Shown: positions 11,954 through 60,010 of the stretch, one piece after another
Numbering within the stretch: position 1 is the stretch's first letter
Layout: every line of letters starts with the position of its first letter
Made by a program: the position numbers and the translations under genes
Origin: Dastarcus helophoroides
Taxonomy: Eukaryota; Arthropoda; Insecta; Coleoptera; Bothrideridae
Length of the DNA stretch: 64,000 bases
NCBI GenBank assembly: GCA_028583605.1
Contig: CM053328.1
Location: 7,712,836-7,776,835, forward strand
Direction of reading: 5' to 3'
Notes under the pieces: model-generated
What the model saw: the letters and a program-made list of their open reading frames with translations, nothing else
Told to the model about the DNA's origin: nothing
The model's database searches: none

Positions 11954-12198
11954 GCTGCGTCTTCCATTCTGGAAATTTTTCTGTTTTGTCTGTCTTATGT
12001 TTCAGGCAAAACAGCTTACAATAGTGCTCCAGCACTTTGATACTGTTCAGACGGAGGGATTGGGGGCCAAGGGCCCGGCCCGAAGAAGTAAGGGTTTTTT
12101 AGTCGGTAGTTTAAGCGGAAGTCCTACACTATCTGGGTTATCTTTCCAGATGTCCATAACGGATTTTTCCCCTTTTTTAACAAAAAAAAAACTGTTAG

Positions 12199-12285
12199 CA
12201 TTCGAGTTGGATATAACAAACTGACGATGACGAGATCTAACAAGATCGAAACCGGTATTTGGTTTCCAAACTTCGAGTCGAATAA
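12199..12285 (+). ncRNA. Hammerhead-ribozyme-like motif in Jockey LINE 3' UTR (degraded)
   Basis: The order is an upstream stem I arm ending AACAAA, CTGACGA, an extra TGACGA, stem II GATCT-AACA-AGATC, GAAA, and a stem III segment ACCGGT followed by A and a downstream stem I arm TTTGG. Stem I also extends through ATTCGA (12,199-12,205) against TCGAAT (12,277-12,282). The 6-bp duplication TGACGATGACGA inserts an A in place of core C3 next to stem II, so this copy is probably inactive. The shorter copy at 55,773 has the undisturbed CTGACGA-GATCT junction. Identified by eye. Confidence 0.55.
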
Positions 12286-12310
12286 ATGTTCAAATCTATT
12301 GGTCTATACA

Positions 12311-12647
12311 TATTGCTGCAAGAGATATTTTTGCTCAAATTTTTCAGAAGTGTAAATGTACTGGAGGAAAACCCACTGAAAGGGATAAATAAGCACGAAA
12401 ATTTCTGAAAATTGGTCCAAATCAGAAACGCAAAAAACAGGCAAAATTAAAATTTCGGCAATAACACATAAGAAACGTCAAAAAAGGTGAAAAATTAGGA
12501 TCATAGGATTTTATTTAAAATCCGGTCTAATTAGCCTTGATAATTCTGGAGTTAAAAAAAATATCCAAATTTTAATTAAATATTAACCAACCCAAAAAAT
12601 CGATTTGGTGTAACAATAAATTTTTGCTTTTGTTTGATGACATAAAT
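12311..12647. other. Short intergenic stretch, no gene
   Basis: AT-rich sequence between the Jockey LINE and the hAT element. No coding frame, no repeat end and no RNA gene seen. Confidence 0.4.
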
Positions 12648-17262: not shown

Positions 17263-20200
17263 TAGGGCTTCGAACCGGAACTGAACCGAAAACCGAAAAC
17301 TGAAAAAAACCGTTATTTTTGTAGGAACAAAAACCGGAACAGAACCGAAAAAAATAACGGGTTATTTTGGTTCGTTGAATTTGTATGTGTTTAATATAAA
17401 TTTTACTTTACCCTAAAATTTCTGATTTTTTTAAAAATTTTCTTTTCAAAATTTTACACAAATTCGTGCAACTTTCATCTCAAAATTACGAGTTTACTTT
17501 AAATAGCATTTTTTTGAAAGTTCAATTAGAAACTTACAATTTCCACTCTTCAAGGACTTACCGAAGCGGGGATATTGGGGGTGTAACACCCCCCTAAACT
17601 TTCGTTTTTTATAGGTAAAATCAATTTGTATTTCACAGTCGGCAAATTTTTCTAATCGAGTCGGCATTTTTAACTTGACTCACCCCCCCAAAAGCATCAG
17701 GCTTGGTACGCCACTGCCACTCTTTATAAGAAAATGTTGATTTTATTGCCAAAAATTCATGCCAAAATGATTTTTTTTTACAAAACTTAAAATTCAATTT
17801 GGCATGAAATATTTGACATGAAAATTCCAAAATTTTCGACTCTTTTTTGAAATTTCGACTTTTTCTCGAAATATTTCTTTTGTTTTCCTAAAATTTCGAG
17901 TTTAAAATAAAAATGTCATGTACTATTGTAAATATGGACTCAAGTAGTGGAGTCTTTTTCATTGAAGCCCAGTTTCCAGATTCGAATTTTTCCGAGAATT
18001 CTTGAACTTTTTCTTCAGAACAAACACTCAAAATTTCTTTTTTTTTCGAAATTGGATTTTCCCTTTTATAATCAAATACCTCTATTTGTTGAAATTATTA
18101 ATAAAAATTTTGAGTTTTCTTCAATTTTTTCCTTCAAATTTCACTTTAATTTAAATATGTCAATTTTTTCTCGAAATTTTAAATTCTAATGATTTTTTTG
18201 ACAATGCCGACTTCATAAAACTTCCCAAAATTCCTGGATTTGGTTTTTTTTCTTAAAATTTGCAATAAAATCTCGCTATTTGTAATTTTTCTTAGAAATT
18301 AGGAATTTCAGTCAAACTTTCAAGAGAAAAATACAACATTTGTATTCCAATTTAAAGCCGGGATCAGATTGAAGTTAAGGGTAAACTTGAAACGATAACA
18401 TTGTAGAAAATGTTTAATTTAAACTTCCAATTTTTATCTGGTTTTGTTTACGCTATATTTGACTTTTTCTTGCAATTTCGACTTTAGCCTCGAAACTGCT
18501 ATTTTTTTTCGGATTGTTTTAAATTTGGTCAGCTCTGAAATCGAAATTTCGTTAAGTCTTGATTGGTAATTTCAGCAAAATTAAAAAAATTCTGGAACGA
18601 GTGAATTTTGAAAAAATGTCGAAGTTATCACAAAACTTTTGAAAAAAAGAAAATAGAAATTTCGAAAAAAACTTCAAATTTTGAATGAATATATATTTAA
18701 CTTCGAAAGAAGTTCCAATTTTGATGATAAAAAGTAAAAATTTTTAAAAAAGATTAAAATCCTGAAAAAATTGAAATATTTCAAAAAGTTTCAATTTTGA
18801 AAAAAGTGAAAATTTTTGGAAAAAAGTCGGAATTATCAAAAAAAGCAGTTAAAACTTCAAGAAATAGTAAAAAGTTTGACCTAAAGGAGAAATTTAAAAA
18901 AAAAGGTAAAGGTTTTCAAAAAAAATGTTTCAACATAATCATATTATAAACAATTAAAATTTTTTAGTAAAAAGGAAATATTTCATTAAAATCAAATTCT
19001 GAAAAAGTTACAGCTTTGAAAAAAGTCTAAATTTTGACGATAAGAGGTCGAAATTTTCAAAAAAAGTCTAAATTCTGGATAAGCTTCGAAAACATTAAAA
19101 AGTCGAAATTTTGAGAAAAATTTAATTTTTTAAAAAACAAAAATTAAAGGAAAATCTAATTTTTTAAATAAAAGTTCACTTTACTACATATAAGCCGAAA
19201 CCTTGAGAAGAAGTCGAAATTAAAAAAAAAATCCGTTTTCAAAAAAAATTAAAGCTTTGAGAAATTGTCAAAAGTTGAACTAAGGTCAAAAATTAAAAAA
19301 AAACAGTTTAGAACCTTTTAAAGGTCTGTTTTCTCATTATTAAATTAACAGAAAATATCAAAATTTTGGAAAAAATAACAATTTGGAGAAAAGATCGAAA
19401 TGATGTGGAAGATTTTCAAAAAATTCAGAATTTGGAAAATAAATTAAAATCCTAAACAAATGAACTGAAAAAGTCTTGCGATTAATAAAATAAATAAAAA
19501 TTGAAAAAAGTGAGAGCTAAAAAAAATGAACATTTGAATTTCAAAGTGTTCAAAATATAAAGACAAAATGCTTTAAGGAAATTGAAAAATGTTTAACAAT
19601 TTTCAATAAAAATGGAAGGCAGACTTTTCAAAAAGTAATAATTTTTAGAAAGTCAGAATTTTGTGAAAAAGTGAAAATTTAAAAAACAGGGTAGAACCTT
19701 TTAAAGGTCAGTTTTTCAACATTATTAAATTTACAGAAAATATCAAAATTTTGAACAAAAAAATAACAATTTGGAGAAAAGATCGAAATTATGTGTAAGA
19801 TTTTCAAAAAATTCAGAATTTGGCAAAATAAATTAAAATCCTGAACAAATGTCAAACTGAAAAAGTCTTGCTATTAATAAAATAAATAAAAATTGAAAAA
19901 AATGAGAGCTAAAAAAAAGAACATTTGAATTTCAAAGTTTTCAAAATATAAAGACAAAATGCTTTAAGGAAATTAAAAAATGTTTCAAAATTTTCAATAA
20001 AAATCGAAGGCACCATTTTCAAAAAGTAATAATTTTTAGAGTCAGAATTTTGCGAAAAAGTGAAAATTGAAAAAAGTTCAATTAAAAAAACAAACACTCG
20101 AGAGAGTCGATATTTGCAAAAAGTTAAAACTTTGAAAAATTTCTAAAAAGACTTGAAATGTTTTGAATAAATCAAATTTAAAATTAGTTAAATTTGCAAA

Positions 20201-23639: not shown

Positions 23640-24225
23640 TAGGGGAAAATCCGTTAAGGACATCTGGGAAGATACCCAGATACTGTCGGAGTTTCGCTCA
23701 AACTACAGATACCGACTAAAAACCCCATCTTCTTCGGGTCGGGCCCTTGGCCCCCAATCTTTCCGTCGGAACAGTACAATAATGCTGGAGGACTGCCTGA
23801 AGCATAAGAAATAAACAAAACAAAAATTTCCGAAATGGAAGTCGTAGCCTAGAGGACCATCCTTGGTCTCCCAATCCTGGTTGAGATGTTTGGATCGTAA
23901 TCCACTGCCTGTTGAACTAGCTGGTTGGAATGCGTTTCAGCTCTCACCATCGCCCTGGAATTAATTTCCCTAAGAAAATCTTTTACCAAAGGTAGTTCAG
24001 CTTCCCTATGGAGTTGATTGTTTCTCACAAACCATGGAGCGTCCATGACTTGTCTTAGAAAGACGTTCTGGAACAGCTGGAATTTCTTCATCTGATTATC
24101 CGTCACCTGTGACCAAGCTACAGATGCGTAGGTCATCGCTGGTCTTATGATTGATTTGTATAGTAACACTTTAAGTCCAATGGAAAGATTACTATTTCTA
24201 CCAATCATCGCTTGCAGCAGTTCTG
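23640..24225 (-). mobile_element. Jockey LINE 3' fragment (RT C-terminus and 3' UTR)
   Basis: On the minus strand this matches 11,620-12,175 of the LINE at 7.9 kb. The encoded residues include LLQAMIGRNSNLSIGLKVL, SIIRPAMTYASVAWSQV and REINSRAMVRAETHSN, ending RPRMVL and a stop near 23,849. This copy retains a block (DNQMKKFQLFQNVFLRQVMD) that is deleted in the longer copy near 11,745, so the two are independent insertions. It is truncated 3' before the hammerhead region and joined at its 5' side to a Penelope-like segment. Confidence 0.85.
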
Positions 24226-24570
24226 AGAGGAAAAATAGAAAGGAAAACTTTATATACCATTCGTCTGCGCGATCACTTCTGAAGATTTCCGATGGTTGGT
24301 TTCCAGATGGAGGAAGGCATGTAACCGTCGTCTCTCTTGATGATTTTGGGAACTTTTGGATTTCAACGGCTTCGCATATCTTCCTATTACAGTAATTGGG
24401 AATATTGGATATAATTGAAATATTATTAAAGAGAATCTTATGTCCGGTCTTATGTTGATGTTCCGCGATGGCTGACTGCGAAAATAAACCAGACTTAAGA
24501 CATCTTTGGTGCTCGGATATTCGCGTCTTAAATGATCGCCCCGTTTCTTCCGATGTACACTGAACCACAA
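24226..24570 (-). mobile_element. Penelope-like element fragment: GIY-YIG endonuclease C-terminus
   Basis: The minus strand encodes TGRSFKTRISEHQR, then SAIAEHQHKTGHKILFNN and YCNRKICEAVEIQKFP, the usual C-terminal half of the GIY-YIG endonuclease of Penelope-like retroelements (conserved Arg, EH.R, AEH...GH and R.I.EA.EI motifs). The GIY-YIG core tyrosines and the reverse transcriptase are absent. The frame runs without a stop into the Jockey fragment, giving a chance chimeric ORF of 239 codons at 23,849-24,568. Not a functional gene. Confidence 0.75.
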
Positions 24571-24574
24571 GAAC

Positions 24575-25219
24575 AAGAAAAATCGCAATTTTAAGAAGAG
24601 TTGAAATTTTGAAGAAATAAAAATTTCGAAATTAAAAGCTTCTTTTGTCAAAAAAATTCGAGATTTCGAGAAACATCCAAAATTAAAATTTGATTTCTAG
24701 ATTGTATATATTTCTAATTTCAGTTTTAATATAGAACTTCCAACGCAACACTCAAACTTTTAACCTTGTTGCTGCTTTAAGTGAAAAGTGAACATTTTGC
24801 AAGCTAGTTAATGTTTCAAAATTATTATCGACATTTGGAGGAAAAGCTAAAATTTTGAAAATACTCAATTTTTCAAACGAAAATTCAAACTTTCTGGGTT
24901 GAAAACTGCCGTGTGAAAAAGTGTTCCTAGGAAAATATTTGAAATTTGAAAAAATTGAAATTTAAAAAAAAGTTGAAATTTAAAAAATTATTTTCACCCA
25001 TGAGGATTTCTATTAAAAGTAGAAATTTCTGCTTTATTCTAAAAATTCTGAGTTTAATCATATAATCTCTGCAAATTAAAACCTGTGATTTCCAAAAAAA
25101 GGTTAAAATTTTGAGAAAAGTCAAAATTTGGAGAAAAAGTTCAAATTTGTTTTCGAAATTTGCTGTTCTTATAGTTGTTACCCAACATTTCAGATGAAAA
25201 TCAAACTTTCTGGGTTGAA
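24575..25219. repeat. AT-rich filler with local direct repeats
   Basis: CTTTCTGGGTTGAAAACTGC occurs near 24,888 and again near 25,204, with related sequence following each (TTCAAATTTGTT, TTTGCTGTT), so a ~315-bp unit is imperfectly repeated. No coding sequence. Confidence 0.55.
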
Positions 25220-29989: not shown

Positions 29990-31713
29990 GTTAATGTTAA
30001 ACTAAATCATGTTTTAAAGTGCACCATTTTGAACTGCCATGGTTTTTTATTAAATCAAAAAATAAATATGAATCTACAGTATAAGCAAAGTTCAAATTTT
30101 GAGAATTTAACTGATAGTTTAAAATTTAGAAAAAAAGGAGAAAATAAAATTTTAAGTCGAAACTTATTTAATTTTAAATAAATAGATTGAACGTTTCAGT
30201 TTTAAATTTAATCTTCAAATATCGAGATTAAAAGTAAAATTTCTAGAAAAAGTTAATTTTTTCAAAAAAGTGTTTCCTCAACTTTTTTTATAATGTACTG
30301 ATGGTAAACTATTGGAAAAATTAACTTTTAAAGTGTATGATTCTAGTATAAATTTAAAGTTTTACTTTTGAACTTTAAATTTATTGAGCAAGGCATAAAT
30401 TTCAGGAAAAAAGTAACATTCAAGTCTAGATAGAAAAGTTGGAAAAAAACAAATCTGAACTAAAAATTCTAATTTTGTAGATGAAATATGATTTGAATTT
30501 AAACATTTGAAGTTCAAACTGGTAATCTTAAGACAAAAGTTCATATTTTGGTTAGAACTTCGAAGTTGAAAACTTCAGTGTGGTATTGGCGAATAAATAT
30601 CAAAAGTTCATTTTTTATCGTAGTTTTCCTGTAGTTTGTTAAACGTGGCAACGTCGTATTTATATCAACAATTTCGCGACCAACCATCGAATGAATCACC
30701 AGTTTATTTTCGTTTTAAGGTTATTTGTCAAACTTTGCAGACTTGCCCGTTAATTAATTTGCTAATTAAAACTTTTGGAGCCTGTTCTCGAACGTTTTTT
30801 AATATAACTCTGTTACTTTTCCAGTAAAATATTTCTTTATTGTAACTAAATAATTTTGACGATGACATTGTTCGGTCATAGAAATGTCTCTTATTTCATT
30901 GCGACGTTGCCTAGTCTAAATACTACGGTAATCAAACGAGACAATGTTTACTTTTGATGTGCTTTTGACCCTAGCAGTATCAACAGTACTAACTTAACAA
31001 TCTAAATTTTAACAAAAAATTCTAATTATTGTGTTTCAAAATTGAAAGATTAAAGTTAAAAATTCGAGTATAAACAGAGAATTTTAAGAATTTCTTTTAT
31101 GCGTAAAATATATTATTTTTTAAAATGTTGAGTTTCTTCTCAAAATTTTAAGTTTAAATTTGCCACCTTTAATTTTTTAAATCTTGCCTTTGTTCTTCAA
31201 AATTGCAAGCTTGATCGCAATTTTTGACGTTTGACTCGAAATTTTGTGTTGACTCGTGTTCTTTTTTATAGAATTTTAAATTTTTATTAAAATATGGTCT
31301 TTTCGTTTAGCTCTTAAACTCCAAATTTCTACTTTTTTTGTTAAGATTGTTAATTTCATCGGAAAAATACCTCTTTTTAAAATGCCTACTTCAAAAGTCG
31401 AGTTAATTTATTTGTTTTATACAATGTATTTATTGCATTTACTATTCTCCAACAATATTTTGCTCGTTTCACCAGTTCGCAACTTATACATAGAGGCCAC
31501 TTTTAAATAAAGACCTGTTTAGGTGCAAATAAATGACAGAAACAGTTTGTTTCTCTATGGACAGAAATGTCAAAATCGTTTGAAAATAGGTTACTCAAAT
31601 GTCAGTTGTGTTTATTTTTATGAATGTATACATTTACGGTGACAAATTTAAAAAACGAAATTTTAAACACCAGTTCTAAGTGTTAAAAAAGTAACTTTAT
31701 TAATCAGTTTATA
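29990..31713. promoter_or_regulatory. Intergenic region upstream of calypso
   Basis: About 1.7 kb without a supported gene. Filler-type sequence occupies about 30,060-30,600 and 31,020-31,400. Between them, 30,630-31,000 is less repetitive and holds GGCAACGTCG (30,647-30,656) and its exact reverse complement CGACGTTGCC (30,902-30,911), similar to RFX X-box half sites. The ~240 bp before the calypso ATG are likely promoter and 5' UTR (inference); no TATA box is evident. Confidence 0.35.
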
Positions 31714-34308
31714 ATGCCAGTGGATATCAAAGAGTTGACGGAGGGTTGGTTGGAGTTAGAGAGCGACCCAGGCCTCTTTACGTTACTTTTGGAGGATTTC
31801 GGGGTCAAAGGTGTCCAAGTAGAAGAAATATACGACCTAAATAAACCCTTAGATAGCCCAGTGTACGGATTTATATTTTTATTCCGTTGGGTGGAAGAGC
31901 GTCGGTCTAGAAGAAAAGTAGTAGAGCAGCAAGAGACATTCGTTAAAGATGAAGAGGCTGTCAACAACATATTCTTCGCACAGCAGATGGTGCCGAATAG
32001 CTGCGCCACACACGCACTTATTTCCATTTTGTTGAATTGCGCCAATATCCATTTAGGCGAGACTCTGGTGCGATTGAAGGCTCATACACAGGGGATGTCC
32101 CCAGAGAATAAAGGCTGGGCAATTGGAAATACACCAGAGCTGGCGTGCGCCCATAATTCCCACGCCATGCCCCAAGCGAAAAGACGCTTGGAGAAAGGTA
32201 GTGGGGTTTCAACTGGTAGGTTCACTGGGGAAGCTTTCCATTTTGTTAGTTTTGTCCCTATCGGTGGTAGATTGTTTGAATTGGATGGTTTAAAACCTTA
32301 TCCTATTGATCACGGACCTTGGGCTGAAGGTACTGAGTGGACGGAGAAATTTAGGAGTGTTATGACTGAACGTTTGGGAATTACTGCTGATGAATATAAC
32401 GAGATCAGGTTCAATTTAATGGCAGTTGTCCCTGATCACAGATTGGCGATTCAACATAAATTGAAAATGCTGAGGACTAACAAGCAAATTGTTCTTGATG
32501 CTTTACAGCAGTTGAAGAAAGTGAGGGCAGCAGAAAAGAAAGAGGAAGATAACGCTGCAGCACCAGTTGTTGCAGCACAAGAAAGTGTGCCGGATGTGCT
32601 TATGAATTCAGGTAATCTAGTTTTTATGCAGGAACAAAACGAATATCTTAAAATTTTCGGTTTAAACTTGAAATTTTGGGAACCGTTTTATTATTTTGAC
32701 AACAGGGTGATATTTCGAGGAGTCCACTTTTCCAAAAAAGCAAAGATTATAAATTTATTGAAAAAATCTTAAGTCGAAACTAAAAAAAAGTAATAATTGA
32801 AAATATATGCTTCAAATCATAAGAAAAAAATTCCAAATGCAAAACAATTTATAAAACAATTCAAGTGTAAGCTTAAATTTAAAAACATATTTAAGTTATG
32901 AAAATGGAGGCATTTTATTTTTTTAATTCGGAATTTTAATGATGGAGAACCTTTCGATAAATAAAAAATTGAGTGTAAACTATTGACTAAAACATCGGAA
33001 ATTTCAGAAAAATTATTATTATACCAAAAGGATTTCTAAAAATATTCAGTTTAAACTCGCTATTTCTTAAAAAAGGTTTGATACCGTTGAAAATTCTCAA
33101 AATAATCGAAATTTATGTAAAAAAAATTGAACTTATGAATTTGTCGCAGTAGCATAAAAAAAAGAGTTATCCGGTTTACAATCAAATTTTTAGGAAAACA
33201 TCAAAAATAGAAATTGAAATTTATGAAAAAAGTTCCAATTCAAAGTCAAATTACAAGAGAAAGGCAAAATTTTGTGAAAGAATGAAATTTTAGTAGTAAT
33301 CTCTAAAAAAAAGTGAAATAACTATGCCAAGGATGAGCATCTTTTATTTTAAGTACCAACTTACAAATTATATAATTACTTAAAATTCTATTTCTTTTTC
33401 ATTTTCGGATCCTTATTGTCTTGAATGACACTAAATTTATTTTAGTTTACAAGCTTGATTAAATTTAGTGTAATTAAAATTCTAATTAAATGTAACTTTT
33501 ATTAAAAGATTAATTTTAACGCAGCTGTTCCAATTGAAAATTCGAGTGAAAAGGTAACCCTCTGCCCCTTGGATTATTCAACACCTCTGACAATTCAAAC
33601 ATCACCAGCTCCGAGCACATCAAGTACAGATACATCATCAGAAGTGGGTTCAGCGTTTAATTCTCCTACTCAGTCGTGGAACTGGTCACAAGGTAGTCCC
33701 GTTCCGAGAGACCTCAAAAGGTATGTCACCCGTATGTTTGTTTTCAGTGGTTCATCATTCAACTTGTTTGCAGATTTGTTGTGATACGAGTGGAAGGAGG
33801 TGAAAAGGAACAAGCAGAAGTGAGTAAAGACGAGAAAAAAGGTCCAATAGCGAGAGTCAAAACCAGTGATGGTGACACAGTTGTCGCAGAGAGAGAAAAG
33901 AAACATCCCGAATATCTAGAACAACACACATTTGCCCCTCAAGACCTCCTGGCCTTATTAAGAAACCTAGAGCACGAAATTTGTGTTTGTGAATTAAATC
34001 TAAAGGATGAAAACGATAAACAGAATAAATACAGGGTAAAATGACGCAAACCAACACTTCTTTTATAAAAGAACTATTTATTTTAGATTGACGACTGTCG
34101 TAGAACGCACAATTATGATGAATTCATCTGTACGTTTCTGTCCATGCTCGCAGAGCAAGGAATGTTGGCAGATCTCGTAGAACAACATCTACAAGTTCCC
34201 AAACGGCCGGGTGGAGCCTTGCCTGTACCGAAAGCCGTTAAAACAGCTAAGAAAGAAAAACATGGCAAAAAGAAAAAGGGAAAAACGAAAGTGAAAAGAA
34301 GACGTTAG
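31714..34308 (+). CDS. caly: calypso/BAP1, Polycomb H2A deubiquitinase (4 exons, 525 aa)
   Basis: The nuclear catalytic subunit of PR-DUB, which with Asx/ASXL removes monoubiquitin from histone H2A. Exons: 31,714-32,611; 33,525-33,720; 33,774-34,035; 34,087-34,308. Introns are GT..AG of 913, 53 and 51 bp, and all phases join in frame. The UCH domain fills residues 1 to about 235 in exon 1, with Gln91, catalytic Cys97 ([10 protein letters not shown]), His176 (GEAFHFVSF) and Asp191 (LFELDG). A coiled coil follows at about 240-275. The ULD lies at about 416-490 ([16 protein letters not shown], then [16 protein letters not shown]). A Lys/Arg-rich tail ([19 protein letters not shown]) matches the nucleosome-binding C-terminus. 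Length lies between fly calypso (about 471) and human BAP1 (729). The first intron contains the AT-rich filler. It is tail to tail with TPRKB, 267 bp between stops. Confidence 0.95.
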
Positions 34309-39739: not shown

Positions 39740-42640
39740 GGCCGTACTTATACTCTTTTTGCTCTAACCACTTCTAAACTCAAATCTAAACTAGGTTCAT
39801 CAACACCTTCAAAATGAAAGACCACATGTGCTGTCTCTGACAGAAACCCAAGTCTCCCCATCCATCAATACAGTCCATTTGCTTTGCCCTAACTACGACT
39901 TGCACACAAAATTTTGACACAAGACAAGGATTTGTGCTTTTACGCGAAGCGACCTGTCCTGTCAACGAGAAGAAGCACTGGAATCTGCTGGTCATGATGT
40001 AATTTGGCTGAAAATCTGCTCCAAAAACGAAGTAATATTCATTTATTCACTTTATTTGTCTCCAAACGATCCCTCATACAGACAGCTCTTCTCTTATCTC
40101 TCCGTAACCTTTGATCACCTACAGACGAATTATCCAAAAGCTGAGGTTGTCTTTCTCGGTGACTTCAACGTACACGACATCCCCTGGTTAAGGTTTTCTT
40201 CCCGAACTGACGACGAGGGAAGGGTGGCAGAGGCTTTCGCCATCACTTGTGGACTATCGCAATTAGTTGAGGAACCCACAAGAATTCCTGATGTAGATAC
40301 CCATCAACCTAATCTACTCGACCTTTTCCTTACAAATTCACCAAATTCGTATAAAATCTCTGTGACATCACAGCTTGGAAATTCGGATCACAAGCTTGTA
40401 GCAGCCTCTCGCTCGCTTTATATACCACCTCCTTCCCAGGCGCAGTCTCGTATGGTTTGGCACTTTAACTCTGCAAATTGGGAAGAATTAAGAGACTTCT
40501 TTGCATCTTTCCCATGGCAGGAAATGTGCTTTAACTCAGACAACCTTTCCTTAGTCGCTGAATCCATCATGGAGACTATCCTGATTGGTATGGAATGCTC
40601 AATTCCCCACTCCCAAAAGAAGTCTGCCTCCAGTAAATCCTGGTTTAGTAAAAAATGTACTCGGGCTGTCTCCTGCAAAAATCGCGCATATCGTCGTTGG
40701 CGAAATAATCCCTCAGTCGAGACTCGGACCATATTTGTCGATGCACGAAATTCTTGTAAACAGGTTATTGATGAGGCAAAAGGTGATTTCGATCGTAAAA
40801 TGCGCCAGAGGCTTATCAACTGTCCGAACGGTTCCAGGTCCTTTTGGGGATTTGCAAAGTCGATTGGAAAGAATTTTACACCTTCAAATTTTCCACCTTT
40901 ACTCGATGGAAGTAGTAATATTGCTACAAAGAAAAGGCTGACATGTTAGCCTTAATGTTTACTGAAAATTCCAATCTTGATTCTCGAAACGCAGAACCTC
41001 CTATTCTTCCTAAGGTTGGCACTTCGATGCCTGAAATCGTTTTCAGACAACGCACAATCAGGAAGATTCTCCTTGAGCTCGACACCTCGAAAGCTTCTGG
41101 CCTTGATGGTATTCCCGCTATTGTTCTTAAGAAGTGCACCCCAGAGTTGACTCCTGTCCTAAGCAAATTGTTCACACTCTCTTACAACAAAGTTGCATCT
41201 GGAAATCTGCTAGAGTGCAGCCTGTCCCTAAAAAGGGAAAAAGGAATCTGGCTAACAACTATCGCCCTATATCTTTGTTACCCGTTATATCTAAAGTGAT
41301 GCAAAAGGTTATCAACATCGAAATTCTCAAATATCTGGAGGAAAATAGAATCATCTCTGTCAGGCAATACGGTTTTAGACAACAACGTTCCACTGGCGAT
41401 CTACCGGCATATGTTACTCATATCTGTAACTCAGCTAAGGAAAAACATGATGAGGCTAGGATTGTGGCATTGGATATCTCAAAGGCTTTCGACAGAGTCT
41501 GGCACCGATCTCTTCTCGCCAAATTAACATCTTATGGTCTTCCTCCTGGACTCTGTCCAATTTTCTCGCTGACAGATCTCTTCAGGTCGTCGTCGATGGC
41601 ATCCCATCCGAGACATTTGCGATTAACGCAGGGGTGCCTCAGGGGTCTGTTCTGTCTCCTACTCTATTTCTGTTACACATAAACGATCTCTTAGCTTCAA
41701 CTTCCAATCCTATATATACAGCTACGCAGATGATAGTAACCTTGGGTCATCTTTTTTCTCCGATAAACCATTATCTATCGCTGCTTCAGATCGACTAAGG
41801 GAACAGCAGATGCAGACGATTAATCGGGATCTCGAGGTTATTCTGGAATGGGGTAAGGACAATTTGGTCGACTTTAACGCTTCAAAAACTTAGGCCGCCG
41901 TTTTCTCTAAGAAAACATCAAGGGATAATGCAACAACAACATACTAATGGACGGTAAAATCCTTCTGATGGGATCTAATCTATCTATCCTAGGAGTGAAT
42001 GCGAGCACTAACTTCTCTTGGGACGATCATGTGGGCGCCATTACCAAATCCGCCTCTCAGAAGCTAGGCTTTCTTTTTGGAGCTAAAAAGTACCTCACAT
42101 CTCAGCAGTTATTAACACTATGCAAAGTTCAAGTTAGGCCAGCACTAGAATGCTGTTCTCATATTTGGAGTTCAGCCCCAAAACACACTTTAGCTCTCTT
42201 GGATTCAATTCAAAGAAGAGCGATTCGCCTAATTGATGACGAGAGTCTGACCGATTCTCTCGAAACACTAGAGCACAGGCGTATGGTTGGTGACTTGTCT
42301 CTTTTCGACAAGTACTATCATGGAAGATGCTCGCAGGAACTAATAGGATTGATCCCCCAAGGGCAAGATTCTTGAGGCGTACTAGACAGTCGGAGACAGC
42401 AAATTCCTGTGCGATCGAGCTTGACACATTGAGGACTTCTGTCTACGGACACTCTTTTTCCTATAGAACTTCCAAGTTATGGAACTTGTTACCGAAAGGA
42501 ATTTTCCCCAAAAATTACAACCTATCGTTGTTTAAGAAGACGGTTCATCGTCATCTATTCTTGTTTCCGCATCCTACTCGCAGTACTTTGAAAACATGAT
42601 GGGGTTACCCTTTGCGAGTGGATTAAACTTAAAAAAATTG
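39740..42640 (+). mobile_element. LINE copy 2 (endonuclease + reverse transcriptase), decayed
   Basis: Same family as copy 1, extended 5' into the APE endonuclease. From about 39,830 broken coding is visible, and an open stretch at 40,056-40,949 encodes GDFNVHDIPW (about 40,160), LLDLFLTN and GNSDHKLV (about 40,383), the endonuclease metal-site and His motifs. Reverse transcriptase follows: NNYRPISLLPVISK near 41,255, ALDISKAFDRVWHRSLL near 41,466, an out-of-frame QGSVLSPTLF near 41,640 and SYADDSNL near 41,720. C-terminal LFKKTVHRHLFLFPHPTRS ends about 42,597, with the 3' tail GAGTGGATTAAACTTAAAA. Deletions near 40,925, 41,195 and 41,550 and a TAG near 41,891 destroy the ORF. ORF1 and the true 5' end are missing. 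Confidence 0.88.
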
Positions 42641-49790: not shown

Positions 49791-51060
49791 CGAGGTACGT
49801 TCAAAAAGTAAGGTGACTTTTCAAGTTTCGCAGGCAACGTACATACGATTATCGATTTTTTGTTGTTGTTTTGTTGGTACACATGTCCCGAACATATGTT
49901 CACAGTTTTAAGTACATAGCATACCTAGTTTGTTTTTGAGAGATAAAAAGGTTACACGTATTTTGTTGTGCTCGGCGATTTTCTATTATTATAAAAAATG
50001 GAGCCAAAAATTTGCATCAAATTTTGTGTGAAAAATGGCATGAAGTGCTCTAAAACCCTTGAAATGTTGTCAGTGGCATACGGTGAGTTTGCTCTAAGTC
50101 AAAAAAATGTTTCCGAGTGTTTCCGAAGTTGATGACGAATCTTGCTCTGGACGCCCCAGCACATCAACAACAGAAGATATCGCCGAAGATGTAAAGAAAA
50201 TTGTTTTTGAAAATCGTCGAATTACCATAAGAGAAGTCGCTGAGGATGTCGGCTTGTGTCATGCAATTTTTTCGGATGTTTTGGGCATGAGACGTGTGTC
50301 AGCGAAGTTTATCCCGAAACTTCTGAATTTTGATCAGAAAAACCGTCGCATGAACATCGCTCAGGAGTTCCTAAATGACATCAATGATGATCCTGATTTT
50401 CTCAAAAGGGTCATAGCTGGTGACAAATCATGGGTATATGGTTATGACGTCCAAGCCACAGCCCAATCGTCACCCGGGAGAGCCAAGACCGAAAAAAGCA
50501 TGCCAAGTCCAATCAAATGTCAAAGTTTTGCTCATTTTTTTTTTGACTACCATGGCGTAATACATCAGAAGTTTTTACCTCAAGATCGTACGCTCAATAA
50601 GGAGTATTACCTTGAAGTTATGCGACGTTTGCGAGAAGCAATACGAAAAAAACGTCCGGAATTGTGGAAGAATAATTCATGGCTTTTGCATCACGATAGT
50701 GCACCTGCTCATTCACCGTCGCTTGGCAGAGGTTTTTTGGCCAAAAACAACACGACAATCATGCCTCAGCCACCATACTCACCGGATTTTGCCCCCTGCG
50801 ACTTTTTCCTGTTCCCAAAACTTAAAAGACCTATGAAAGGACGGAGATTTGCAACGATTGAAGAAATAAAAACTGCGTCGCTAGAGGAGCTCAAGGCTAT
50901 ACCAAAAAATGCCTATAAGAAGTGCTTTAAAGATTGGAAAAAGCGTTGCCACAAGTGTATCTGAGGGGGATTACTTTGAAGGGGGCAATATAAATGTTGA
51001 TGAATAAATAAATATTTTTTCATAAAAATATAAAGCCATTTTACTTCTTGAACGACCTCG
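49791..51060 (+). mobile_element. mariner element (TA-flanked, 1,270 bp)
   Basis: TA dinucleotides flank it at 49,789-49,790 and 51,061-51,062. The terminal inverted repeats are CGAGGTACGTTCAAAAAGTA on the left and, read inward from the right, CGAGGTCGTTCAAGAAGTA. It contains one transposase gene in plus orientation. The size and structure are those of a full-length mariner. Confidence 0.92.
49998..50964 (+). pseudogene. mariner transposase, frameshifted
   Basis: Transposase cuts and pastes the element at TA sites. Translation from ATG 49,998 (MEPKICIKFCVKNGMKC) gives the first helix-turn-helix and then hits a TGA just after 50,125. A block is missing and the frame shifts there. The downstream frame to 50,964 carries SGRPSTST (linker), the second HTH, IAGDKSWVYGYD (first Asp), LLHHDSAPAHS (second Asp) and YSPDFAPCDFFLFP (third Asp), with 34 residues between the last two: an intact D,D34D triad. 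The catalytic half is therefore conserved while the DNA-binding half is broken, so the copy is probably inactive and recent. Confidence 0.9.
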
Positions 51061-52269: not shown

Positions 52270-53804
52270 GGGGCGGCAAATTTCTATTTTAAACTGGAAA
52301 TATCATAGGACGATAAGCATAGTGAATCGGCCCCAAAAAGATATCTGGATCATTTTTTGAGAATGCTTTGCTACTAATAAGATTTTTTGATCCTGCAAGT
52401 TTCAGATCTCTATCTATTTTAGTTTTTGAATAAATCGAATAAATTCTAAAAAAATCGAAAAATAGAAAAAAACATTCTCAAAAACGACTTAATCGATTTA
52501 AATAAAATTTGAAAACATTATAGAAATATGCATAGGCTATATTCCCAAAAATTGACAGTCTATAATCATTATGTTATTTACGAAAAACGGACATTTTTTT
52601 TCAAAATTGTTTTTTTATGATAACGTTCTAAAACAATTTTAGAACTAATTTCTGTTTATGTCTTTTTTTGATGTAGCATAACCTTGCAAATGCTAAAACT
52701 GATCAAAAAGGTACGCCATATTGAAAAAAATAATAAAAACCGATTTTTTCATTAAAAAATTGATTTATATTTTAATTTCAGGAATATTGGGCTCATCTCA
52801 GAGATTATATTCCTACTAATAGGGTAATTTAACCCTGCAAGTTTCAGGGTTTTATTTATTTATTTTTATGGAAAAATTGGAAAAAACAAAAAATAGGTTT
52901 CAATTAAATTTGAAAATATTAGAAAGGTATATGAATGCTTTACTCAAAAAAAAAATATTAGCTCCTTTATAACCTTAATAATAATTATTAGAGACGTTCT
53001 AGAGCAGTTTTAAAGTTAACTTTCTTAATGCGTTTTTTGATATAGAATAATCTCTGGAATCCTTAAATTAATTAAACATCGATTTATTTCAATGTGATTT
53101 ATATCATTGAAACAACAGAAACAAAATATTCAAAAAAAATTATGAGACTTGTTTTACTAAAATATTATAATAAGTATATTAAAAAAATAATATATGAACT
53201 AGATATATTAAGATCTTGATAATTTTACTTAAAATATTTTTTGCATTTTACAGTACCAATATAAAAAATTATTAATCAATATGCTTGTAAAATGATTTAA
53301 TCAGAAAACTAAACAATTAGAGCGATTCCTTCCAAAATCAATGGGCTTTTATTCTTAGAAAACCATAAAAACATGAATATCAAAAATCAGTCAGAAATTG
53401 CTACCTGTAGCATGATCAGAAACGTACACATAGATCGACGAATGAAAATACGTGATTCAATGGGGAATTTTGGACTTAATAGCCGTTTCAAAATGTAGCA
53501 AATAATAATTTGTTTAGAAAAAACTCTCTTCTATCCAAAATGCTATATTACAACTGATTTGGTAGACATTCAATTATCTAACATGTTAACTATAATTTTA
53601 TGGTGAAAAATCAAGTTTTTGGTATTTATCGATAATAGAGCAACCGACGCAATGGTCATGGTGCAATAAACAGAATTTTCTAAACTGCAATTTTATAGTT
53701 TAAGAAATTAAAATTGATTATGATTGATCTGATCTATTGATGTTTTAAAGTTAAAGCGAAGAAGGATACGTTAAGTAAAATTATTAACATTTAAGACTAT
53801 TTAA

Positions 53805-54035
53805 AAAATTGATACCCAAATCTTGTCCCCTGAAACCAAGAAAGATTAAAAAACACAACAGTTGCTCTAACGCGTTTCAACAGCCAAGCTATCATCTTCA
53901 AAGGGATACTGTACAGTACTGAGTGTCTCTCTGAAGATGATACCTTGGCTATCGAAACGCGTTGGAGCACTGTTGTTGGGTTTTTTTTTAATCTTTCTTC
54001 GTTTCAGGGAACAAGATTTATGTATCAATTTTTAA
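53805..54035. repeat. Palindromic unit of the AAATCTTGTCCCCTGAAAC family, copy 1
   Basis: It begins near TTGATACCCAAATCTTGTCC and ends with the inverted GGAACAAGATTTATGTATCAA; both arms carry CCTGAAACCAAGAAAGATTA and TAACGCGTTTCAACAGCCAAG or their reverse complements. The centre is TACTGTACAGTACTG. The two arms differ at several positions. Similar single-arm units lie at 57.2 and 59.8 kb. Likely related to Penelope-like terminal repeats (inference from the CTGAAGATG...GAAACGCG motif). Confidence 0.75.
53918..53985 (+). ncRNA. Degenerate hammerhead-like motif in the palindromic unit
   Basis: CTCTGAAGATGATACCTTGG, then CTATCGAAACGCGTT. Core CTGAAGA fits CTGANGA; GATA/TATC can form stem II after one unpaired T; GAAA is followed by the palindromic ACGCGT. 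TCTC upstream can pair with GGAG downstream, and GTGA with CACT, as stem I. The extra T next to stem II departs from a strict hammerhead. The opposite arm (53,868-53,905, minus) has TTGAAGA and is weaker. Confidence 0.35.
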
Positions 54036-55703
54036 AGAGAATCGAGGACCAGTCCGTTTTACCAAAATTCAAGTATACTTCTTATTGATTTTTCAATATT
54101 TTGATATTTAAGGTGCAACGGATACATCCGCAGAGATCAATAGTATCAGTGGAACGTGGAACGTCCTTTTTTTAGTCGTCAACAATATTTTGTCACACGA
54201 CGTTTTTTTTAGTCATCAAAAAATATTTTAGAATATTTCTTTTTAGAAACATTTATTTAGTCATAAAAATATTAATAATACAATTTTGTTTATCATCGAT
54301 TTTTTAGAGCTTAGATTTAACAAACGTTGCGGCTTTAAATATGGATTGCTCTTATAACTAAGGAAAATTAAATACTAAACTTTTTTTTAGAAATGTCTTC
54401 ACTTTGAGTTGACAAATAAGCACAGAAAGTTCCCTACCAAGTGCATGTGCGGATTGGCCACCATATTAAGTTAAAGATGGAAAATTTTGTTTTTTGTCAA
54501 CAACTAACACAATTTTAGTCCTAACAAAAATGTTTTACATAAAAGTTAGAAAGCATAAAATTTACTGCAAAGAAGTTATTTGCCATTTTTTCGTAGATCT
54601 AGTCGTTACTGGGAAAATGCCATGCTTTTGAATATTTGCATTGATTTCAACATCACCTAAACAGTATAGCATGTGATGCGTTTTTTTAATTAATTTTGCC
54701 AAGATGCCTAATGTACTTTTCTGTCTTTGGTTAAATTCGTTATTTATTGACATCACTGTTTTTATTGGTCTTGATGTTATGTTCTTCATCTAATAATTTA
54801 CTTTCATGTCGTGATCAAAAAAAAATAATTACGAGAGTATCTACAAAGGTTTCAAGCTTTGTGGTATGTATAAAGGTTTCAACGGTTTCGTATGTCGACC
54901 ACCAACAAATCTACTAGTATTAATTGCCTAGTTAGTAGCTCTCTAAGATACGAGGAATCTCCTGATTACATATTTTTTTACTTTTTTTGTTGTTCGCAAA
55001 ATTAGTGAAAATCTATAGAATACGAACCATCGACCAACTGTCTTTGCAAAAAGTAATCTGATCTCGTTTTAGACATTTATTCATTTAGAACCCGTCAGCG
55101 TGTAAACGACGATAACGATGATGAAGGTGAATGTTAATTAACTCAGAAACGTAACATTCAGACTAACAAAAACAGCCCTTCCGCCAAAAAAATTGCAAAT
55201 TCAATGGAAGAGGTGAAGTAGGTTAGGTCTTCTGAAGATATTGCTTAAAAAGTACAGACCAGAATCTATACATTTTGGGTAGTGCAGAAATGAGTGTGAC
55301 TAGACATTTTCTCAATAACGACTAGCTCTACAAAAAAATGGTTAATAACTTTTTTGTAGAAAATTTAAAGTTCCCCGACATTTATTAAAATCATTTTTTT
55401 GTTAGATCAAGATTGTGGAAATTATTGGCAAAGAAACAAAATGTTCCATCTTCAAATCAATATAGCGGCCGTTCCCCACACGATCTTACTAAGGAACTTT
55501 ATAAATTTATTTGTGAAGCGTAAGTGAAGATATTTCTAAAAAAAAATTTAGTATTTAATTTTTTTGCAACAGGGGTGATTTTTCATCTATTTTTCCTGGA
55601 CTACTTCGGCGTAAATAAAACATGTCTACATTGAGATTTTGCCTTTGTTCGAAATTATTGATAAAAAACACCCGCAAAATGTGGAATCAAAATGCAAATT
55701 GAT
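54036..55703. other. Interior of the foldback element with exon-like traces
   Basis: At 55,406-55,519 (+) a 114-nt block is bounded by TTTTTTGTTAG and GCGTAAGTG, matching splice acceptor and donor, and encodes RLWKLLAKKQNVPSSNQYSG and then RSPHDLTKELYKFICEA without stops. A minus-strand frame at 54,562-54,789 contains MLYCLGDVEINANIQKHGIF. These may be remnants of one or two old element-encoded genes; no family recognised. Confidence 0.3.
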
Positions 55704-55714
55704 TCTGAATTCTG

Positions 55715-55886
55715 GTGGTAGTACGCTTGACGCCTGTGAAGGTTTTAGTACTTACTTGTCGGAACATTTGTTAGTATTCGAGTTGGATATACCAAACTGA
55801 CGAGATCTAACAAGATCGAAACCGCTAGTTGATTTCCAAACTTTGAATCTAATAAATGTTCAAACCTATTGGTCTGTGCATTAGAA
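55715..55886 (+). mobile_element. 172-bp derivative of the Jockey LINE: 5' end joined to 3' end, with HHR
   Basis: It begins GTGGTAGTACGCTTGACG and runs to CGGAACATTTGTT, matching 7,945-8,014 of the LINE with a small deletion. It then jumps at a TGTT microhomology to AGTATTCGAGTTGGATATA and the rest of the LINE 3' end (12,195-12,310). Flanks share TCTGAATTCTG (55,704-55,714 and 55,887-55,897), an 11-bp target-site duplication, so it moved as a unit. It has no coding capacity and must be mobilised in trans, presumably by the Jockey proteins (inference). Confidence 0.82.
55773..55850 (+). ncRNA. Type I hammerhead ribozyme candidate (Jockey-derived element)
   Basis: Stem I upstream arm ATTCGAGTTGGATATACCAAA, then CTGACGA at 55,797-55,803, stem II GATCT-AACA-AGATC, and GAAA. 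The core and stem II are perfect and uninterrupted, unlike the longer LINE copy. The stem III/cleavage segment reads ACCGCTAGTT, where the LINE has ACCGGTATTTGG, so this side has drifted. The LINE copy has the reverse defect; combining the two observations implies an ancestral intact hammerhead. Confidence 0.6.
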
Positions 55887-56749
55887 TCTGAATTCTGATT
55901 AAATTAATATTAAACATATTGATAAATAACTGTATGCACATGTTATATTGATATGTTAAAATGCAAAAGGGTATTTTAACTAAAATTATTGACATCTTTG
56001 CTAATATATACTTTTAATTAATTTTTAAATACTTTAGTATTTTAGTAAAATATTCATATACTTTTTTTGAATGTTTGGTTTCTGTTGTTTCAATGATATA
56101 AAAAACATTGAAATTAATCGATTGTTATTTGCACATTCTCAATCAATCGAGATATTATTTTATATCAAAAAACACATTAAGAAAGTCAGCTTTAAAATTG
56201 TTCTTGAACGTACCACAAAGGAAAAAAAATCGCAAAAGACTAACTCTTTCTAACAATTATTATTAAAATTAAGAGCTAGTATTTTTTTAAGCAAAACATT
56301 TATATATCTCTATAATGTTTCCAAATTTCAGTGAAATCGGTTTTATGCTGTGTTTGAGAAAAAAAAGTTCCTATTTTTTGTTTTTTTCGATTTTTTCAAA
56401 AGTGAAAATAAATAGAATTCTTCTACTTGCAGGATCAAACTATCCCATTAGCAGGAATATACTCTTCAGAGATGACCCCAATATTCCTGAAATTAAAATA
56501 AATTAATTTTTAAATGAAAAAATTGGTTTTTATTTTTTTCAATATGGCGTACCTTTTTGATCAGTTTTAAAATTTGCAAGAATATTTTACATCAAAAATG
56601 ACATAAAAAAAGTTTATGTCAAAATTGTTCTAGAACGTTATCATAAAGAAAAAAAATAATTTCGAAAAAATTGCCCGTTTCTCCTAAATAACATAGACAT
56701 TTTGGGTTATTATTTTTTTTTCATATAACCTTTATGCATATCTATAACA

Positions 56750-56949
56750 AGTCACCCAATGGAGGTTTGCTCTCTTAGATACTTATACGACTGACTAACG
56801 GCTTTGAATTGGAAGTGTGTATAACCACCGTACCATGCTGATGAGGCCAAGGAAGGCCGAAACTAGTCTATGGTTGCGGTTGTACATATTTTTAATTTTA
56901 AGCAGGTTTAACTGTTTAATTACGAACATTTAATTGGTCATTTGTCACC
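56750..56949 (+). mobile_element. 200-bp hammerhead-bearing insertion with 9-bp TSD
   Basis: TCTATAACA flanks the unit (56,741-56,749 and 56,950-56,958). The empty site is visible in the opposite arm of the foldback element, where GCATATTTCTATAATGTTTT (reverse of 52,515-52,535) is uninterrupted, and the 440-bp repeat period on the right is exceeded by 200 bp. The insert starts AGTCACCCAATGGAGG and ends CATTTGTCACC. It encodes no protein and contains a hammerhead ribozyme near its middle. Size and content resemble animal retrozyme-type or Penelope-related non-autonomous units; no partner element is present in the window. Confidence 0.85.
56817..56887 (+). ncRNA. Type I hammerhead ribozyme
   Basis: All core elements are in canonical order: CTGATGA (56,838-56,844), stem II GGCC-AAGGAA-GGCC (56,845-56,858), GAAA (56,859-56,862), stem III AC-TA-GT, and cleavage triplet GTC with predicted scission after C56,868. 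Stem I pairs 56,832-56,837 with 56,869-56,874 (6 bp), then a 6/4-nt internal loop, then 56,817-56,825 with 56,879-56,887 (9 bp with two G-U). An internal loop in stem I that could contact loop II is typical of natural fast hammerheads. The 2-bp stem III, within palindromic ACTAGT, would favour dimeric cleavage, as known for minimal hammerheads in retroelements. Confidence 0.88.
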
Positions 56950-57181
56950 TCTATAACATGTCAAAATTTTATTGAAATCGCTTAAGTAGTTTTTGAGAAA
57001 AAAATATTTTTCAATTTTTCGGTTTTTTTGATTATTTTCAAAAACTAAATTAGATAGAGATCCAAAACTTGCGTAATCAAAATATCTTATTAGTAACAAC
57101 TTACCCTTAAAATATGATCCAGATATCCTTCAGGGGCCGATTCACTATACTATTCGTCCTATGCCCTTTTTCTAAAAACTG

Positions 57182-57330
57182 AAATACAAATCTTGTCCCC
57201 TGAAACCAAGAAAGATTAAAAAACACAACAAAGGTTGCTTTTAATGCGTTTCGATAGCCAAGGTATCATCTTCAGGGAGATACGTAGATAAGATTTGTAT
57301 TTCAATTTTTGAAGATAACCAAGGACCAAA
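57182..57330. repeat. Palindromic unit of the AAATCTTGTCCCCTGAAAC family, copy 2
   Basis: GAAATACAAATCTTGTCCCC at the left is inverted as AAGATTTGTATTTC at about 57,292-57,305. Between them, on the minus strand, lies CTGAAGATGATACC...TATCGAAACGCATT, the hammerhead-like motif with ACGCAT instead of ACGCGT. It interrupts the right end of the 4.9-kb foldback element. Confidence 0.65.
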
Positions 57331-59029: not shown

Positions 59030-59769
59030 ATAGCTGAATTTTTGACTCAAAAATTTTGACTCAAAATTTTAACGTATGCTCTTTTACTTTATTAGCGAGA
59101 TATAGGTAATTTAATCAAAAGTGGAAGTTTAATTTTGAACTGTTGACTGTTTTCTATCATCTCTACTTTCAATTTCAAAATTCGACTTTAACCTTGCAAC
59201 TTCCTTTTTCCCAAAATTTTTCTTTTTATTAACTGTTTAGGTGACGTCTTTCGATACCACTCATTATTGTCAGGGCCACTCATTTCTTTAATGTGTTAAA
59301 TGAATTGACTTTGTTTTGAATTAAATTTTGAAAAAATTTCGATATTTTCGAAACTTTTGCCTTTTAAATTTAACATTTTCAACCCTTACTTCGTGAAAGT
59401 CTTTAACGAAAACTTGTGAAATTTTGTTACGTCTTTATCGTTAATAAAAATTAATAGTTATGAATTTTTAAATTTGTTTTTTTCAAATTTTCGATTTTCT
59501 TTTCAAAATTTCGACTTCTCAAAATATTAACTTTATTTTGAAAATGTTCACCTTACTAAAAGTTCATTTATTTTATTTACTTAAAAATATAATTTTTTCA
59601 AATCGCGACATTTTTAAAATATTTTTTGAATATTTTGCAAGATTTTGATTTTTTCTGAAAATGTTGCCGTCTTTTTTAATTTTCGAAAATTTTTAAAAAT
59701 TTCTACTCTTTCTTAAATGTCGACATTTTTTCTCTCCAAGTTATACTGCTTCTTTGATAATCTTGAATT
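59030..59769. repeat. AT-rich filler
   Basis: AAATTTCGAC-type quasi-repeats, T-run polarity, with a short non-filler block near 59,230-59,300. No gene. Confidence 0.45.
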
Positions 59770-60010
59770 TGATATATAAATCTTGTCCCCTGAAACTAAG
59801 AAAGATTAAAAGCACAACAACAATAAACCTTCCCTAGAAAGATTGTTATAAAAGATGTTTAAAAAAGAAATAAATCTACCAGTAAAATGTTAGTAAGAAT
59901 TTGCCAACGGCTAATAGCCACGCAGCTGATGCCGTCAAGAAATAAAAAAAAAACACTTGGTCTAACGCGTTTCGATAGCAAAGTTGTCAACTTCAGAGAG
60001 ATACTAGTGG
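59770..60010. repeat. AAATCTTGTCCCCTGAAAC family unit, copy 3
   Basis: It starts ATAAATCTTGTCCCCTGAAA, contains an extra ~110-bp segment not seen in the other copies (about 59,825-59,940), and ends with TAACGCGTTTCGATAGCAAAG then TTCAGAGAGATAC. The minus strand gives CTGAAGTTGACAAC...CTATCGAAACGCGTT, a further degraded hammerhead-like motif. Confidence 0.6.

Follow-up and report, generated by a model that had tools for sequence, protein, structure and literature searches.

A 466-bp retrozyme family of Dastarcus helophoroides with two fixed insertion ends, probably inserted by Penelope-type priming on both target strands

The hammerhead-bearing insert in the 64,000-nucleotide stretch of Dastarcus helophoroides DNA analysed here (the window) is a 5′-truncated monomer of a 466-bp repeat family that, by its layout, is an animal (non-LTR) retrozyme. 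While elements of this kind are already known, the anatomy of the insertions is new: where the family is inserted as two head-to-head arms, one arm nearly always ends at one fixed site of the unit and the other arm at a second. This anatomy and its pairing rule form the strong part of our case. We think it probable that a Penelope-type enzyme primes reverse transcription on both target strands, each at a site of its own, with a circular RNA as template.

An earlier note on this DNA had described a textbook hammerhead within a non-coding 200-bp insertion, flanked by a 9-bp target duplication and with its empty site preserved in the inverted arm of the host repeat, and had proposed that it might be a new, non-autonomous ribozyme-bearing retroelement. 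Every hammerhead part that it listed is in the sequence (CTGATGA, a GGCC/GGCC stem II, GAAA, a GTC ending at C56868, and a long stem I with an internal loop), as is the duplication, and the empty site is real, since the joined flanks match the inverted arm without the insert (Table 1); a direct partial host copy at 56156–56484 also lacks it (68% over 335 columns). The limits of the insertion stand as far as the duplications go, but family homology begins with an ACA that overlaps the left duplication and stops before a CC that lies outside the family and is perhaps untemplated. What fell was the 200-bp unit: the window copy matches a 466-bp unit at 97% over 202 aligned columns. We number this unit from the first base 3′ of the predicted ribozyme cut, whose position we take from the hammerhead core rule.

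Table 1. Positions in the window of the truncated copy, its ribozyme, its target site and a neighbouring Penelope-like insertion
Feature	Position	Strand	Remarks
5′-truncated monomer of the 466-bp family	56747–56947	+	Unit 345 to 466, then on to 80; BLAST with the 466-bp unit
Target-site duplication, left, TCTATAACA	56741–56749	+	Shares its last 3 bases with the element
Target-site duplication, right, TCTATAACA	56950–56958	+	
CC between family end and right duplication	56948–56949	+	Absent from the family sequence
Type I hammerhead, with outer and inner stem I	56815–56889	+	Sequence, structure evaluation, weak HH9 score
Catalytic core	56838–56862	+	CTGATGA 56838–56844, stem II 56845–56858, GAAA 56859–56862
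Stem II, GGCC-AAGGAA-GGCC	56845–56858	+	
Helix III palindrome ACTAGT	56862–56867	+	Proposed pairing between ribozymes (dimer)
Predicted self-cleavage point, C56868/T56869 (unit 466|1)	56868–56869	+	
3′ end at site A (unit 80)	56947	+	Within apical loop 78–84 when the full unit is folded as a circle (prediction)
Inverted arm of the host repeat, target site unfilled	52304–52818	−	79% over 523 columns against the joined flanks
Family P (Penelope-like), head-to-head, tail on one end only	53801–54040		Hammerhead-like core ending ACGCGT

Fetched loci repeat with a period of 466 bp, many genome matches are spaced by that length, and tandem units number up to about three per arm. A genome search with a 218-bp query gave at least 41 matches at 95–100% (a lower bound, as 40 of 1799 first-look candidates were scored), and matches are spread over 12 numbered contigs. 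The 31-nt core with Y at N7 occurs 1096 times exactly in the 539-Mb assembly and 1931 times at up to two mismatches, against none for the reversed-pattern controls, which bears out the expectation of further copies in the genome; a pattern search of IMG/VR for the core gave nothing. Coding capacity is indeed lacking, the longest stop-to-stop run of the circularised unit being 89 codons. Among the first 100 core places listed (G000:C1), 18 clusters hold at least two cores; in 17 of them, all but the one at L062, every core has the same base at N7 (T or C), and C dominates in clusters.

Regarding the ribozyme, "textbook" holds for the core, which is free of mismatches, but not for the monomeric form, in which helix III has 2 bp and a 2-nt loop; left to fold freely, the RNA pairs some of its core bases in place of helix III. 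A covariance search, which the earlier note had suggested, did find a match, Rfam HH9 scoring the window hammerhead at 25.9 bits (E = 4e-4 in 701 bases), but below the 52-bit cut-off, and at gathering score there was no Rfam match in the 64-kb window. Eight copies in two of the sampled loci, L010 and L011, scored 22.5–22.9 bits (E = 0.13–0.18). Because the helix III sequence ACUAGU is a palindrome, a helix III of 6 bp can form between two ribozymes, and the ribozyme probably acts as a dimer through it; a circle of one unit would then be protected from cutting itself. Dimeric action has been described for the newt hammerhead (PMC6155905) and raised as a possibility for those of Penelope-like elements, or PLEs (PMC7761336). 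In the present genome, palindromes also occupy the helix III place in two PLE-like families and in a coding PLE treated below. In the 32 insertions that we parsed, minor alleles make up 0.73% in the core, N7 left aside, and 1.24% in the remainder of the unit, a difference short of significance (p = 0.21); taken as a whole, the 75-nt ribozyme region varies more, at 1.88%. Genome-wide, the core outnumbers a control stretch of the same unit (positions 346–376) 3.2-fold among exact matches (339 for the control) and 1.9-fold at up to two mismatches (1028), an excess to which 5′ truncation and subfamily divergence contribute and which suggests that the ribozyme has been kept.

The parsed insertions comprise the window copy and those at L009–L038, the surroundings of the best-scoring copies near it, with BLAST clusters under 80 nt, such as weak matches in L014 and L021, dropped before the ends were read. 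Eighteen are two-armed, with the arms head-to-head, and 14 are one-armed. In 16 of the 18, the outer ends lie one at site A and one at site B (aligned unit positions 76–87 and 277–292, respectively), while the remaining two join site A to a second end at unit 258 or 462. One-armed insertions end at A in 11 cases, the window copy included, and at B in three. Seven further loci, which follow one another along chromosome 1 in the core listing with places already used passed over, gave five A-ended insertions, one A/B pair and a one-armed copy ending at 246, so that A is paired with B in 17 of 19 two-armed insertions and neither A/A nor B/B pairs occur among the 19. The rule may reflect strand-specific priming or some selection of products. 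After adjustment for the duplications, and on our reading of the alignment table, the ends fall mostly at 78–84 for A and 275–282 for B, with L021 and L037 beyond the range at B and L027 ambiguous at A. In the predicted circular fold these are apical loops (78–84 and 277–280), a placement that recurs in eight of ten distinct full units for A and nine of ten for B, when apical loops make up 8% of positions.

Target duplications of 9–14 bp flank 19 of the 32 insertions, a count from which a spurious duplication at L018 was left out, and 13 of the 19 are 12–13 bp long. The 5′ ends are variable, 51 of them being spread over the unit. The longest arms measure 1373 nt from A and 1503 nt from B, roughly three units in either case. 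Where two arms meet, their alignments overlap by 2–11 nt in 11 of 18 insertions and not at all in six, BLAST ends perhaps adding a few chance bases to these figures, and by 54 nt in L010, where a palindrome blurs the alignment. The unit positions at which the two arms meet are more than 20 nt apart in 16 of 18, the exceptions being L010 (177/177, again palindrome-blurred) and L024 (107/120). In three of the 18, each arm carries at least 10 nt that are absent from the other.

The two arms of an insertion also tend to share alleles. At six polymorphic sites, copies on the same strand of an insertion agree in 98 of 101 comparisons and those on opposite strands in 100 of 102, compared with 4028 of 7344 (55%) between insertions; none of 2000 permutations reached the opposite-strand figure. 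These comparisons, made after 8-nt segment edges and overlapping columns had been dropped, are non-independent, and most come from the three arrays L010, L011 and L012, in which both arms hold full units and are concordant at every informative site. Inclusion of the seven chromosome 1 loci brought opposite-strand agreement to 100 of 104. Thirteen two-armed insertions are informative, of which ten are fully concordant and three are not; at L062 the arms disagree at both informative sites, indicating that they came from two templates. Overall divergence follows the same order (0.83% on the same strand, 0.85% on opposite strands, 2.26% between insertions). Reverse transcription crossed the ribozyme cut site 60 times; two of the 51 5′ ends fall no more than 3 nt from that site, where 0.66 would be expected. 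Arms and junctions together fit two cDNAs that rolled round a circular RNA and were joined, often, by microhomology. A homogeneous linear multimer, or gene conversion, could also be the source of the allele sharing.

The genome holds a coding PLE that follows the same rule. A 76-aa fragment in the window (24332–24559, minus strand), which we take to be GIY-YIG-like, gave 150 scored matches, the best of 2761 candidates, many of them equal-scoring and some, among the 150 listed, with open frames of up to 900 aa. We name this young element PLE-R. Its frame at L043 matches RVT_1 (E = 3.9e-12), and the first ATG of that frame, which falls within the stem II region, precedes the cut by 17 nt, compared with 26 nt in the Anolis PLE (PMC11167929). 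Eleven head-to-head insertions of PLE-R, the close plus/minus pairs among the 150 matches listed, all pair a short end with a long one, lying 54 and 86 nt after the cut and hence 32 nt apart. Target duplications, computed for six of them, are 12–15 bp, and ACGT is the palindrome at the helix III place. One start site of each kind per head-to-head insertion is thus common to the retrozyme and PLE-R (11 of 11), although one PLE-R copy carries a reverse transcriptase domain and the retrozyme is non-coding; the ends of the two show no significant sequence similarity (p 0.16 to 1).

Two further PLE-like families came to light through a loose hammerhead descriptor, which matched the window 25 times against 11.6 expected, a number reached in 4 of 100 shuffles; alone it would prove little, and no ribozyme is proven by its matches. 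In family P, which is more divergent, the short/long rule holds in all four head-to-head insertions with two full ends, and two further insertions with a very short second arm (57184/57284 in the window, 1928/2025 in L021) look alike. The tail test for this family tolerates four mismatches and makes loose calls on one-armed copies, which were left uncounted. Family P pieces have the core CTGAAGATGATACC..GAAACGCGT and lie in the window at 57173–57310 and 59766–60001 besides the one in Table 1, with more in L012, L018–L021 and L026; several are head-to-head with a tail on a single end. Family Q, a hammerhead-like repeat with the core CTGACGA..GATCTAACAAGATCGAAACCGGT and a palindromic helix III, is found at 12191–12330 and 55769–55881, and relatives occur in L012, L014, L018, L019 and L038.

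Our model for the retrozyme would run as follows. Multimeric transcripts of the 466-nt repeat would be cut by a hammerhead that requires a partner (dimeric helix III, ACUAGU), and the monomers ligated into highly self-paired circles, each of which, since it holds a single ribozyme, would stay intact. A Penelope-like protein would nick both target strands about 9–14 bp apart, and each nick would prime reverse transcription at an RNA loop of its own, A (unit ~80) or B (unit ~278). Either cDNA may run more than once round the circle; the two would meet at scattered positions and be joined, often through a few shared bases, into a head-to-head array flanked by the target duplication. The arms would usually carry the alleles of one template, with at least one insertion having used two. 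A single cDNA joined straight to the target would leave a one-armed, 5′-truncated copy such as that of the window. Self-cleavage, circularity, dimerisation and the identity of the enzyme are the points at which we infer beyond the insertions themselves.

The alternative with the best claim, which we nonetheless hold to be unlikely, is a Penelope-type insertion from linear, uncut multimeric transcripts, the hammerhead being vestigial or serving to trim transcripts and the circle being absent. Ribozyme mutants of the Anolis PLE still insert in vitro, where unprocessed RNA is the dominant template (PMC11167929). The start sites of that enzyme did not differ in vitro between top and bottom strands, which counts against our own model. 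Read-through of the cut site would likewise be expected from uncut RNA, and arms from two templates, as at L062, would not surprise. Against this, the concordance found throughout L010, L011 and L012 would require a linear multimer transcribed from an array that was homogeneous beforehand; the RNA is strongly self-paired (z = −9.8, for the circular fold of one unit against 60 dinucleotide shuffles), as retrozyme circles reportedly are (PMC7229834); and the excess of the core over the control stretch suggests a ribozyme that has been kept, despite the lack of significant core conservation in the 32 insertions.

Fold-back, or self-primed, copying of a single cDNA, proposed for bdelloid PLEs (PMC3846280), would account for allele sharing between head-to-head arms. 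It also predicts nearly equal unit positions at the junction, at odds with all but two of 18 insertions, and is hard to square with sequence private to each arm or with the discordant arms of L062; the fixed site B and the A/B pairing it leaves unexplained, and we regard it as quite improbable. More improbable still is a satellite spread by recombination, of which the 200-bp piece would be a chance deletion product: exactly spaced tandem units are what it would give, whereas dispersal over 12 contigs, target duplications, an empty site and fixed 3′ ends are not. As for a short cut-and-paste element with a chance hammerhead, target duplications and dispersed repeated copies are about all that speaks for it, and with variable 5′ ends, tandem arrays and scattered inversion junctions on the other side we give it hardly any credence. 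Priming by a Penelope-type enzyme at a separate site on each strand of the target, with a circular RNA as template, remains our preferred reading.

A broader proposal, which we put forward tentatively and rate somewhat short of an even chance, is that Penelope-type insertion is at heart target-primed from two ends: either strand of the target would be lengthened by copying RNA, beginning at a start loop peculiar to that strand. The retrozyme would make this plain because its two reactions both roll round circular RNA of small size, in many cases seemingly a single circle. If so, most of a head-to-head insert could be made with no second-strand synthesis on a DNA template, and what has been called an "optional tail" in PLEs would be no more than the sign of the second start site. 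For the completion of a Penelope-like insertion, the Anolis work leaves second-strand synthesis and repair to steps that are still unvalidated (PMC11167929). In the present genome, the many insertions of the 466-nt RNA and of a coding PLE preserve a record of the reaction: two start sites, one per end of the head-to-head insert, and scattered meeting points. Retrozymes are thereby tied to PLEs by a shared anatomy, beyond co-occurrence.

Some of this anatomy has precedents among PLEs. As in the Anolis Poseidon element (PMC11167929), where the start lies about 85–92 nt after the cut (by subtraction from values in PMC11167929), reverse transcription of the 466-bp retrozyme begins internally, in a predicted stem-loop 3′ of the cut. 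Like PLEs as described there and in PMC3846280, the retrozyme has head-to-head copies and target duplications, with a tail possible on one inverted end. The Anolis protein cleaves and extends both strands in vitro and uses two start sites (PMC11167929). The optional tail is 31 bp in a bdelloid element (PMC3846280) and 30–40 bp in general (PMC11167929); the retrozyme start sites are, by comparison, some 195–198 nt apart and unrelated in sequence. An autonomous PLE has a frame for reverse transcriptase and a GIY-YIG endonuclease, unlike the 466-bp unit, which has no long frame and which we do not class as a PLE.

The proposal of a non-autonomous, ribozyme-bearing retroelement with target duplications was thus borne out, but novelty does not extend to its kind, the layout being that of the animal retrozymes. 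With those of Cervera and de la Pena (2020; PMC7229834), as far as their account is drawn on here, the family shares a type I hammerhead with an intact core, small non-coding tandem repeats of GC content below 50% (37% in this unit), target duplications longer than 4 bp and a self-paired RNA; PLEs were proposed there as the driver. At 466 bp it exceeds their range of about 170–400 nt, which we take as observed rather than essential, and its insertions end away from the ribozyme cut, unlike those of PMC7229834, the main text of which, in the parts we draw on, makes no mention of head-to-head arrays with two fixed start sites. In the open-access literature, covered mostly by title listings, we found no description of such two-start-site insertions. 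Plant LTR retrozymes, with type III hammerheads in their LTRs and 4-bp duplications, differ in topology and in duplication length. The pDo500 satellite of Dolichopoda cave crickets has, to judge by its name, a repeat of a few hundred base pairs. By description (PMC6155905), it and the newt satellite resemble the 466-bp family in carrying a type I hammerhead in satellite-like tandem repeats; that account, as far as it is drawn on here, describes neither where their insertions end nor where reverse transcription starts.

Elsewhere in the window, the PLE-R fragment is fused in frame, within 23849–24631 on the minus strand, with a second segment, which is presumably a LINE-like reverse transcriptase tail; a Pfam search with this frame gave no match. 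LINE fragments with Pfam matches are present at 763–1338 and 10605–11201 (RVT_1) and at 39918–40949 (Exo_endo_phos_2), a mariner-like Transposase_1 frame at 50098–50964 (+), and a 391-bp tandem duplication, 91% identical, at 19298–20075. A ubiquitin C-terminal hydrolase frame (Peptidase_C12), which we take to be BAP1/calypso-like, occupies 31687–32772 (+).
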